Assembly: GCA_025357235.1 (NCBI GenBank)
Contig: JANXPQ010000002.1
Location: 1-35,731, forward strand
DNA from: Betaproteobacteria bacterium
GTDB lineage: Bacteria > Pseudomonadota > Gammaproteobacteria > Burkholderiales > JACQAP01
Reading direction: 5' to 3'
DNA: 35,731 bases
Translations under genes and position numbers: made by a program
Shown: positions 27,577-33,077 of the stretch, piece by piece
Layout of the letters: each line of letters begins with the position of its first letter
Numbering within the stretch: the first letter of the stretch is position 1
Notes under the pieces: model-generated
What the model saw: the letters and a program-made list of their open reading frames with translations, nothing else
Told to the model about the DNA's origin: nothing
Database searches by the model: none

Positions 27577-28038
27577 ATGAATACCGATATCTGGAAGATC
27601 ACTGCACTGACGCTGTTCCTGGCCTTTTTGCTGGCCGGCGCACCGATGACGTTTGCCGCCGAGAGTACCGGCGGCAAGACCACCGGCAAGGACGTTTCGC
27701 AAAAGATCGACGAGACGGCGCACGCGATCAAGAACTATTCCGCGGAGCAGCGCGATGAAGCCCTGAAGAACGCGAAAAGCGTCCTCGCGGACGCCGATGC
27801 GCGCATCGATCGTTTCGAAAGCAAGATGAACAGGGACTGGGACAAGATGAATGCTTCGGCGCGCAAGCACGCGCAGGATACGATGAAGATGCTGCGCCAG
27901 CAGCGCCAGGATCTGTCCCAGAGCTACGGCGAGTTGAAGCGCAGTTCCGCGAATGCCTGGGATGAGGTCAAAGAGGGCTTCGCGAAGAGTTACGACGCGC
28001 TGCGCGACTCCTTCTCGAAGGCGTCGAAGGAATTCTGA
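27577..28038 (+). CDS. Secreted coiled-coil protein, possible stress-related
   Basis: Protein of 153 residues. Signal peptide MNTDIWKITALTLFLAFLLA with cleavage near TFA-AES, then a highly charged, heptad-rich helix from about residue 40 to the end (IDETAHAIKNYSAEQRDEAL, KMNRDWDKMNASARKHAQDT). It resembles apolipoprotein-like or Sll1863-type stress proteins in style, but the match is only structural. AAAGGAG is six bases before the ATG. GGAACTT at 27426-27432 upstream hints at an ECF/sigma-E type -35, without a clear -10. A strong terminator follows. Confidence 0.7.
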   Translation: MNTDIWKITALTLFLAFLLAGAPMTFAAESTGGKTTGKDVSQKIDETAHAIKNYSAEQRDEALKNAKSVLADADARIDRFESKMNRDWDKMNASARKHAQDTMKMLRQQRQDLSQSYGELKRSSANAWDEVKEGFAKSYDALRDSFSKASKEF

Positions 28039-30002: not shown

Positions 30003-30977
30003 ATGGCCGAGCAGGGCAACTGGGCGTTTCCGAAGGGCATGCAACCGCAGCAGGAGGAATTGCGGTTCGACCTGGACTCGGCGCTCGACGCAGTCGTGCA
30101 ACTGCGCTCGGAAATTCCCGAAGACGCCTTCACGGCCTCCATTCTCGGCACCGAACGCGCCGGCAACGGCATTGTCATCCGCGACAACGGCCTCGTCCTC
30201 ACCATTGGCTACCTCATTACCGAAGCCCGCAGCATCTGGCTGACGACCAATAGCGGCCTGGCGCTCGCCGGGTACCCGCTGGCTTACGACCAGGCCACCG
30301 GATTCGGGCTGGTGCAGCCGCTGGGCCGGCTGGGTGTATCGGCGCTGCCGCGCGGCAGCGCCTCCTCCTGCGCAATCGGTGACGACGTCATCGTCATCAG
30401 CCACGGCGGGCGGGCGCACGCATTGAAAGCGAAAATCACCTCCAAGCGCGAATTCGCCGGATATTGGGAATACGTGCTCGACGAGGCCGTGTTCACCGCG
30501 CCCGCGCATCCGCAATGGGCAGGTGCCGCGATAGTGGGAATGGATGGCCGGCTGCTCGGCATAGGCTCGCTGCTCGTGGAAGAGGCGTACGAGGGCAAAC
30601 AGGCGCAAGGCAACATGGTCGTGCCAATCGACCTGCTCGAACCGATCCTGGACGACATGCTGAAGTTCGGTGGCCCGAACCGCGCGCCGCGCCCGTGGCT
30701 GGGAATGTATGCGGCGCAAACGGGCAGCCAGGTCGTCGTCGGCGGACTGGCCGAGGCGGGCCCTGCACAACGTGCCGGCATCCGCCACGGCGACATTGTG
30801 CTCGAAGTTGCCGGCCAGCGCGTTGCATCCCTTGCGGACATGTTCCGCAGAATCTGGCAGCTCGGCGCCGCCGGCACGGCAATTCCACTGACGTTGGCCC
30901 GCGAAGGCTCGTTGCTCAACGTGAGCCTGCAATCGGTCGACCGCAACGACCTCCTCAAAAAACCTCAACTGCACTAA
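30003..30977 (+). CDS. HtrA/S1C-like PDZ protein without the catalytic triad
   Basis: Protein of 324 residues with a trypsin-like fold (about 40-210) and a PDZ domain (about 228-312, with GLAEAGPAQRAGIRHGDIVL). The strand where HtrA has its catalytic His reads GLVLTIGYLITEA (Tyr70), the GNSGG serine loop reads PQWAGAAIVGMDG (Ala173), and the Asp position reads TGFGLV. So the triad appears lost and it is likely a pseudoprotease with a binding or sensing role. No signal peptide is seen, so it may be cytoplasmic. The start at 30003 has a weak ribosome-binding site; the frame is open further upstream. Confidence 0.8.
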   Translation: MAEQGNWAFPKGMQPQQEELRFDLDSALDAVVQLRSEIPEDAFTASILGTERAGNGIVIRDNGLVLTIGYLITEARSIWLTTNSGLALAGYPLAYDQATGFGLVQPLGRLGVSALPRGSASSCAIGDDVIVISHGGRAHALKAKITSKREFAGYWEYVLDEAVFTAPAHPQWAGAAIVGMDGRLLGIGSLLVEEAYEGKQAQGNMVVPIDLLEPILDDMLKFGGPNRAPRPWLGMYAAQTGSQVVVGGLAEAGPAQRAGIRHGDIVLEVAGQRVASLADMFRRIWQLGAAGTAIPLTLAREGSLLNVSLQSVDRNDLLKKPQLH

Positions 30978-30991
30978 CCCCCTCACCCCAG

Positions 30992-31019
30992 CCCTCTCCC
31001 CCGCCACCGGGGGAGAGGG
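30992..31019. repeat. CCCTCTCCC-type interspersed palindrome
   Basis: CCCTCTCCCCC and GGGGGAGAGGG form a perfect 11-bp stem around a 6-nt loop. This short palindrome type is scattered in many proteobacterial genomes. It lies between two convergent genes; no T-tract follows. The rest of 30978-31202 holds no gene that I can support. Confidence 0.8.
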
Positions 31020-31202: not shown

Positions 31203-33077
31203 TCAGCCGAACCCGAATCGCGCCGGCAGCCAGAGCGAAAACGCCGGTACGAATACGAGTACCAGGAGGGCGACGAACAGGACCGCGAGATACTTCGCCA
31301 TCGGCCCGATCACATCCTTCAGTTCGGTGCTGGTGATCGAGCAGGTGGCGAACAAACCCAGTCCGACCGGCGGGGAGAACAGCCCGAATCCCATCGCCAC
31401 CACCATGACGGTGCCGAAGTGCAGCGGCGAGACGCCGAGCTGCAGCGCGATCGGCGTCAACAGCGGCCCGAAGATGATCAGCGCCGGTGCCCCCTCGAGA
31501 ATCGCGCCGAATGCGATCATCAGCAGGGTCGAGGCGAGTACGAAGCCGTCGGCGCCGAAGCGGTGCCCCAGGTCCATCATGAACCCGGAAAGCTGCTGCG
31601 GGATCTGCTGGATGGTCAGCGCGAAGGACACGCTCGAAGCCGCCGCGACGATGAAAAGAATGCTGCCGGCCATCGACGCCGAGCGCACGAACAGGCGCAG
31701 CACGCTGTGCGCGTTCAGTTCGCGAAACGCCAGTCCGCCCACGACCAGCGCGTATGCCACCGCGAACGCGGACACTTCCGTCGACGTCGCGATGCCGGAC
31801 GTCACGCCTTTGCCGATCATCGCGATCATGACCAGTCCGACCAGTGCTCCGCCGATCAGCGGCACCATCGCCCGGCGCTTTTCGAACGCCGAGTCGGGAT
31901 CGATGCGCGAGCCGAAGGCGTAGGCCACCAGCGCGAGGGATAGCGCCATGAACGCCGCCGGCACCAGGCCGGCGATGAATAATCCGCCGATGGAAATGTT
32001 GGCGACGAACCCCATGATGATCATGTTGATGCAGGGCGGAATGGTTTCCGCCATGACTGCCGAGGCGGCCAGCAGCCCCGCGGCATCGTTCGGATCCTGC
32101 CGGGTGCGGCGTACCGCGGGCATGATGATGCCGCCAACGGCGGCGATGTCGGCGAGCTTCGAGCCGGACACGCCCGAAAAAAAAGCCGTCGCGGTGATGA
32201 TGATCAGGTTCAACCCGCCGCGCACGCGCCCGAACATGCGCAGCAACAATTCGATCAGCCGCGACGACATGCCGTTCGCCTCCATCAGCAGGCCGGCCAG
32301 CACGAAGAAGGGAATCGCCAGCAACACGAAATGATCCATGCCCGACAGCACCTGCTGCGAGTACACCAGCATCGGCAGCGAGGGATCGGCGAGAAAGTAA
32401 AGCAGCGCGGAAAACGCCAGCGCGAACGCGATCGGCAGGCCGGCGACGATGCTCAGCACGAAACCGGTGGCAAGCAGCATCATGGGTGTGGCCGCCTGCG
32501 CGGGCATTGCGGCATTCCAACTCCAGACTGCGGCGGCCATGACGACTGCCAAAGCCAGCGTGCCCCACACAGTCCCGCCCGGACCTTCGAGCGCACTGGC
32601 AATGCCGAACAGCAGCATGAGTGCGCTGCCGATCACGACCGGACCGATGTAGATCCACTGCGGCAGCCCGATCGGCGTAGTCTGGCCGCGCGAATCGGCG
32701 AACAGCGCGCAGGAAGACAGCAACAACGCAAGCGCAACTACGACGACGATCCAGTGGCAAAGCTGGATCAACACCGGGCGCCAGGCGGGAGGAAACAGGT
32801 TGCGGAAGCTGTCGATGCCGACATGCTGCGCGTGTGCCAGCGTCGTCGCCGCGCCGAGGAAGACCTGCATGCCCATCAGGGCGCGCGCAATTTCTTCCGC
32901 CCAGTCCACCGGATCGTGCAGGAAATAACGCCAGACGACCGAGCACAACACCACCAGCACGTCGGCGGCCAGCACCACGGCCGCGAAAATTTCCGTCGCG
33001 GCCAGCAGCCCGCCCAAGGCATGGTGCGCGGAGCGCGGCCTGGAAAACCGGGAGACGTAACTGGCGTTGTCTTTCAT
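31203..33077 (-). CDS. TRAP transporter fused small and large permease (DctQM)
   Basis: Membrane protein of 624 residues joining a DctQ-like four-helix part (about 1-160, with VVWRYFLHDPVDWAEEIARAL) to a DctM-like twelve-helix part (about 190-620: AGLPIAFALAFSALLYF, FVLLAIPFFVLAGLLMEANG, GVSGSKLADIAAVGGIIMP, AETIPPCINMIIMG, FGLFSPPVGLGLFATCSI). It imports an organic acid, driven by an ion gradient, together with DctP encoded 28 bp upstream. Substrate unknown. Confidence 0.93.
   Translation of the reverse strand: MKDNASYVSRFSRPRSAHHALGGLLAATEIFAAVVLAADVLVVLCSVVWRYFLHDPVDWAEEIARALMGMQVFLGAATTLAHAQHVGIDSFRNLFPPAWRPVLIQLCHWIVVVVALALLLSSCALFADSRGQTTPIGLPQWIYIGPVVIGSALMLLFGIASALEGPGGTVWGTLALAVVMAAAVWSWNAAMPAQAATPMMLLATGFVLSIVAGLPIAFALAFSALLYFLADPSLPMLVYSQQVLSGMDHFVLLAIPFFVLAGLLMEANGMSSRLIELLLRMFGRVRGGLNLIIITATAFFSGVSGSKLADIAAVGGIIMPAVRRTRQDPNDAAGLLAASAVMAETIPPCINMIIMGFVANISIGGLFIAGLVPAAFMALSLALVAYAFGSRIDPDSAFEKRRAMVPLIGGALVGLVMIAMIGKGVTSGIATSTEVSAFAVAYALVVGGLAFRELNAHSVLRLFVRSASMAGSILFIVAAASSVSFALTIQQIPQQLSGFMMDLGHRFGADGFVLASTLLMIAFGAILEGAPALIIFGPLLTPIALQLGVSPLHFGTVMVVAMGFGLFSPPVGLGLFATCSITSTELKDVIGPMAKYLAVLFVALLVLVFVPAFSLWLPARFGFG

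Follow-up and report, generated by a model that had tools for sequence, protein, structure and literature searches.

A widespread HtrA-fold protein family with replaced catalytic residues and a probable binding function

Introduction

HtrAs of the DegP, DegQ and DegS type act in the periplasm. Members of this group (HtrA/DegP/DegQ/DegS, peptidase family S1C) are built from a trypsin-like domain that carries a His-Asp-Ser triad, followed by PDZ. The closest described non-catalytic relative is MamO, an HtrA-type pseudoprotease of magnetotactic alphaproteobacteria encoded in magnetosome islands, whose oxyanion hole and cleft are obstructed by Glu at position 193 and Trp at position 192; it works by binding, without catalysis (PMC4794232). 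MamO promotes MamE-dependent proteolysis, keeps the catalytic His and Asp (H116 and D149), has a di-histidine metal site and ends in a transporter domain (TauE) (PMC4794232). Replacement of catalytic residues, including His to Tyr, is also described for bacterial pseudo-orthocaspases (PMC6426788), which have a caspase fold and are unrelated to the HtrA-type family considered below.

The window, that is, the whole 35,731-nt stretch of DNA analyzed, encodes a 324-aa protein whose initial annotation was that of a probable binding-only or regulatory pseudoprotease of HtrA type. Here, we compare this protein with canonical HtrAs and with its own relatives, which appear to form an undescribed family. 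No earlier description of the family was found in the open-access literature, though subscription journals or MEROPS may contain one.

Results and discussion

Protein layout and predicted structure

The window protein has the trypsin-like domain and C-terminal PDZ domain of the HtrA/Deg layout, as judged by AlphaFold, Foldseek and Pfam matches above the gathering scores (Trypsin_2, PF13365, E = 1.2e-10; PDZ_2, PF13180, E = 2.9e-9) (Table 1). The NCBIfam models for DegP, DegQ and DegS were not matched at their cutoffs; the best, TIGR02037, scored 60 bits where 416 are needed. The AlphaFold2 model, built with 53 sequences, has a pLDDT of 92.2 and a pTM of 0.89, and the top 50 Foldseek matches in the PDB were all HtrA-type proteases, with E values down to 1.7e-20. 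Both the Pfam matches and the structure prediction thus agree with the initial annotation that the protease-like fold is kept. The whole-chain TM score to HtrA structures in the PDB is ~0.5 (Foldseek), probably because the domain orientation differs. A search of the PDB for a solved structure of a family member found none, the best matches being canonical HtrAs. The good PDZ ligand groove ascribed to the protein is consistent with an intact carboxylate-binding loop; almost every member of the two subfamilies described below has [PA]W[LIM]G-hydrophobic at this place.

The mechanical open reading frame, which ends with the stop codon at 30975-30977, could extend upstream to 29844, overlapping the 3′ terminus of the MFS gene that precedes it. 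Conservation among orthologues starts at Met1/Trp7, the predicted start of the 324-aa protein, and direct reading of the translated upstream extension reveals no obvious hydrophobic segment. The window protein itself also has no hydrophobic N-terminal segment, in line with the earlier view that a signal peptide is missing.

Table 1 Features of the pseudoprotease gene and its product in the window
Feature	Position	Strand	Basis
HtrA-fold pseudoprotease gene (probable), subfamily A, 324 aa, no signal peptide	30003..30977	+	Open reading frame and translation; Pfam; relatives with common start region and C-terminus
N-terminal motif WAFPxxxQP, residues 7-15, typical of subfamily A	30021..30047	+	W7 and P10 invariant in 12 orthologues
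Trypsin-like domain, residues 54-187	30162..30563	+	PF13365 match; AlphaFold strands
Signature LTIGYL, residues 66-71; Tyr70 (30210-30212) at catalytic His	30198..30215	+	Alignment
Gly100 at catalytic Asp	30300..30302	+	Gly in all scored relatives, Asp in 12 canonical HtrAs
Signature FAGYWEY, residues 151-157, a hallmark not in canonical HtrA	30453..30473	+	W155, E156 and Y157 at 1.00 in both subfamilies
Former nucleophile/oxyanion loop HPQWAGA, residues 169-175: Gln171, bulky Trp172, Ala173 (30519-30521)	30507..30527	+	Alignment
PDZ carboxylate-binding loop PWLGM, residues 231-235	30693..30707	+	Conserved in subfamilies A and B; equivalent loop in canonical HtrAs
PDZ domain, residues 233-309	30699..30929	+	PF13180 match
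Conserved C-terminal tail R314-H324, ending KKPQLH	30942..30974	+	R314 invariant in subfamilies A and B

Loss of the catalytic residues

Canonical HtrAs from the window's order, in which His, Asp and Ser fell at the aligned columns in 12 of 12 sequences, were used to place the triad. The canonical segments ILTNHHVV, DPxTDLAVL and NPGNSGGAL align with VLTIGYLI, DQATGFGLV and HPQWAGAAI of the window protein, respectively, so the S1C triad is replaced by Tyr70, Gly100 and Ala173. All three replacements claimed initially, namely Tyr for His, loss of the Asp site and Ala for Ser in the GNSGG loop, were confirmed. The alignment revealed a further lesion beyond these, as the oxyanion-hole glycine (position 193) is Gln171.

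The fixation of these replacements was assessed in two sets of relatives. Scanning GTDB genomes with sequence patterns gave at least 595 stretches; 593 of the matches listed were confirmed relatives, and 80 were kept. LTIGYL was one of the patterns scanned for, which skews this set, taken by itself, in favor of that motif; a wider set added loci from whole-genome profile searches that did not need LTIGYL to be found. Tyr at position 70 and Gly at position 100 were each present in 81 of 81 sequences (the 80 scan relatives plus the window protein) and were invariant in 151 of 151 relatives scored at those columns in the wider set. One locus (L172) was misplaced by the aligner and reads LTIGYL, DTGFGL and PGYGGAAL by eye. 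Position 171 is not Gly in 122 of 122 members of subfamily A and 29 of 30 of subfamily B (151 of 152), and Trp172 is present in all 122 members of subfamily A. The substitutions are therefore fixed for Tyr70 and Gly100 and not for Ala173, which is variable: position 173 is Gly in 60, Ser in 19 and Ala in two of the 81 sequences, and Gly in 102, Ser in 39, Ala in nine and Gln in two of the wider set. The congener of the window genome carries Gly there. On a tree from which the triad columns were left out, at least 14 changes are required at residue 173, which argues that this position is free of catalytic constraint. The constancy of Tyr70 and Gly100 in the aligned sequences of 151 relatives is not attributable to chance, and frozen residues at the former His and Asp positions alongside a drifting nucleophile site would fit a long-dead protease under a new constraint.

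An alternative Ser-His-Asp triad was considered and rejected, as the family has no conserved His: the residues conserved in at least 95% of subfamily A and at least 90% of subfamily B include one Ser (189), Asp96 and Asp264 but no His. The pseudoprotease reading given initially is thus supported by the fixed His and Asp replacements, the predicted HtrA fold and the exclusion of a second triad.

Comparison with HtrAs and MamO

The family is separated from canonical HtrAs by one branch with a support of 100, and a profile search of a phylum sample gave family members scores of at least 319 bits, against 108 bits at most for every other HtrA. With Tyr at the His position, Gly at the Asp position, FAGYWEY, a PDZ domain and a place on this separate branch, the window protein belongs to what we propose as the LTIGYL/FAGYWEY family. 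Its members have in common with HtrA, DegP, DegQ and DegS the order of a trypsin-like domain and PDZ, the fold and the carboxylate loop, at ~18-27% identity. Unlike those proteases, they do not have the triad His and Asp, mostly not the Ser and not the oxyanion Gly; they also differ in having a single PDZ domain, in the absence of a signal peptide from subfamily A and in the signatures LTIGYL and FAGYWEY.

The family resembles MamO (PMC4794232) in a non-Gly residue at position 193, a bulky Trp in loop L1 (by GNSGG alignment, at 194 in the window protein and 192 in MamO) and active paralogues in the genome. It differs in having Tyr for the His and Gly for the Asp, in the PDZ domain that follows and in the occurrence of the gene in many other bacteria. 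With MamO compared by its description, no family-wide conserved His pair corresponds to the di-histidine site, and the C-terminal transporter domain is absent, the window protein ending after its PDZ domain. By these sequence comparisons, the active-site block is the same in kind as that of MamO, with His and Asp also lost, and the protein is not a MamO.

The gene is maintained by purifying selection, as judged from a dN/dS of ~0.16 (Nei-Gojobori) against the congener, whose protein is 87% identical. The window's genome contains four other HtrA genes, each with His, Asp and Ser in place, so active paralogues coexist with the pseudoprotease; the window protein is ~21-23% identical to them.

Subfamilies and distribution

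The window protein is 49-87% identical to its first 11 orthologues in subfamily A, which is marked by WAFPxxxQP near the N-terminus and by His169 and Trp172 in the former nucleophile loop. Subfamily B is 38-44% identical, more often keeps Ser at position 173 and has Arg, Thr or Val in place of His169, which is invariant in subfamily A. A hydrophobic N-terminal segment, for secretion or anchoring, is clear in most members of subfamily B. No signal peptide was seen in subfamily A (median best 15-residue hydropathy of 1.15 in the first 46 residues), and the open frame upstream spans 20 codons or fewer in 45% of its members. On the tree, subfamily B is nested in A, and the direction between the two is uncertain because the outgroup is distant.

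The family C-terminal signature KKPxLH is present in the window protein, and all 81 proteins (scan relatives plus the window protein) end at or before its C-terminal column. Subfamily A relatives end in Leu-His (83 of 121) or Leu-Gln (22 of 121), unlike subfamily B, most members of which have hydrophobic or aromatic C-termini (Ile, Leu, Tyr or Val; for example, L013, L032 and L034), as a PDZ ligand would.

A profile search found a family member in 93 of 399 genomes of the window's order, which named relatives suggest to be Burkholderiales; among the matches listed, subfamily A occurred in 56 genomes (23 of them also with B) and B only in 37. Subfamily A is kept in reduced genomes of 1.6-1.9 Mb. 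A subfamily B pseudoprotease (L169) is present in a complete, single-contig 1.2-Mb genome (G731), where its retention suggests that it matters.

By sequence, the family spans many alpha- and betaproteobacteria. It is far wider than the MamO of magnetosomes, the sole bacterial HtrA pseudoprotease met in the literature searched. Subfamily A members occur in plasmid records from Azospirillum, Rhizobium, Neorhizobium, Pararhizobium and Phyllobacterium; those with an annotation are called "S1C family serine protease" or "signal protein PDZ". The public protease label is probably wrong; because of it, hundreds of genomes seem to have an HtrA protease where the gene very probably encodes no such enzyme. 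Since the family occurs in culturable genera (Azospirillum, Rhizobium, Neorhizobium and Methylobacterium), its function is directly testable.

Candidate functions

Taken together, we consider it fairly likely that these proteins are a catalytically dead family of HtrA (S1C) fold, apparently undescribed, that acts through binding by the PDZ domain and a remodelled cleft. With the same replacements fixed in relatives, the window protein is probably a binding or regulatory protein, an action that would follow naturally from a dead triad. Because the neighbouring genes are not conserved (see below), the proposed adaptor role draws on PDZ conservation and precedent, and the Ser kept at position 173 in about one-quarter of members is a point against this reading. 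Subfamily A would be a cytoplasmic adaptor or scaffold, probably trimeric as other HtrAs are. Its PDZ domain would take the C-terminal tails of client proteins, the blocked former cleft (Tyr70, Trp172 and FAGYWEY) would serve as a second binding or structural site, and the fate or activity of clients would be altered by holding or presenting them without cutting. Subfamily B, with its signal or anchor segment, would have an equivalent role at or beyond the inner membrane. The HtrA scaffold would then have been retained widely for roles other than catalysis, in the cytoplasm as well. A more speculative version, which we regard as rather unlikely, is a widespread proteobacterial cytoplasmic PDZ adaptor system derived from a dead HtrA that reads C-terminal tails and controls stability or assembly, its own conserved C-terminal tail possibly entering adjacent PDZ domains to act as a switch.

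Other readings account for parts of the same evidence. MamO sets a precedent in the superfamily for a fold turned to small-ligand or metal binding (PMC4794232), with PDZ only positioning the fold. His169, beside the former nucleophile and invariant in subfamily A, and the invariant polar residues R52, E74, D96, E156 and N204, which have no catalytic explanation, would suit such a role, but there is no invariant His pair, His169 is not conserved in subfamily B and the one other near-invariant His of subfamily A is the C-terminal residue, so we judge it unlikely. The invariance of Tyr70 and Glu156, to a degree usual for catalytic residues, could instead point to a new enzyme, its active site rebuilt in the former cleft from Tyr70, Glu156, Ser189 and Asn204. 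Across the family, though, the invariant residues include no His, Cys or Lys, and most are Gly, Pro, Leu and aromatics, which fit packing, making this distinctly improbable.

If the protein were a regulatory or dominant-negative subunit, joining active HtrA chains of its own cell in mixed trimers, the four intact paralogues could be its partners, and the promotion of MamE-dependent proteolysis by MamO (PMC4794232) is a parallel. Subfamily A has no signal peptide, however, and DegP/DegQ/DegS-type HtrAs are periplasmic, so the two should not meet; with the low identity to the paralogues as well, we think this quite doubtful. Ser at the nucleophile position in about one-quarter of members could also favor a pseudogene in decay or an unusual protease that is still active. 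A pseudogene was rejected on the dN/dS value and on frames that are intact among the matches listed, and an active protease would have to work in a family that never has the His or Asp and has lost Gly193 almost throughout, so that either is next to impossible.

Genomic surroundings

Upstream on the same strand lie genes for an amidohydrolase, a thioesterase, a small hypothetical protein, a MarR regulator and the MFS transporter. This gene order, together with the downstream TRAP DctQ-DctM gene on the opposite strand, is common only to the congener, and neighbours differ elsewhere. Clustering of neighbours at 20 and then 92 loci found, beyond the sister species, only common transporters (MFS, RND and ABC) and general genes, so partners cannot be read from context. 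The adjacent MarR and MFS genes were considered as operon partners and rejected as a functional unit for the family, because their synteny with the pseudoprotease gene extends only to the congener. Scanning for promoters around the pseudoprotease gene yielded nothing.

A small protein encoded upstream (27577-28035, + strand) has a signal-like N-terminus and a long amphipathic helical body, with a weak Apolipoprotein match below the cutoff, and among the loci compared was seen only in the congener. Downstream (31203-33077, − strand), a single 624-aa fusion protein combines the small (DctQ) and large (DctM) TRAP membrane subunits, with an ORF for a solute-binding protein upstream of it on the same strand. 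Directly 3′ of the pseudoprotease stop, positions 30980-31019 read CCCTCACCCCAGCCCTCTCCC, which holds a 12-nt perfect inverted repeat (30992-31003 and 31008-31019). A 21-nt stretch of it occurs nine times in the genome at two or fewer mismatches, against none for a control pattern, and looks like a dispersed repeat element.
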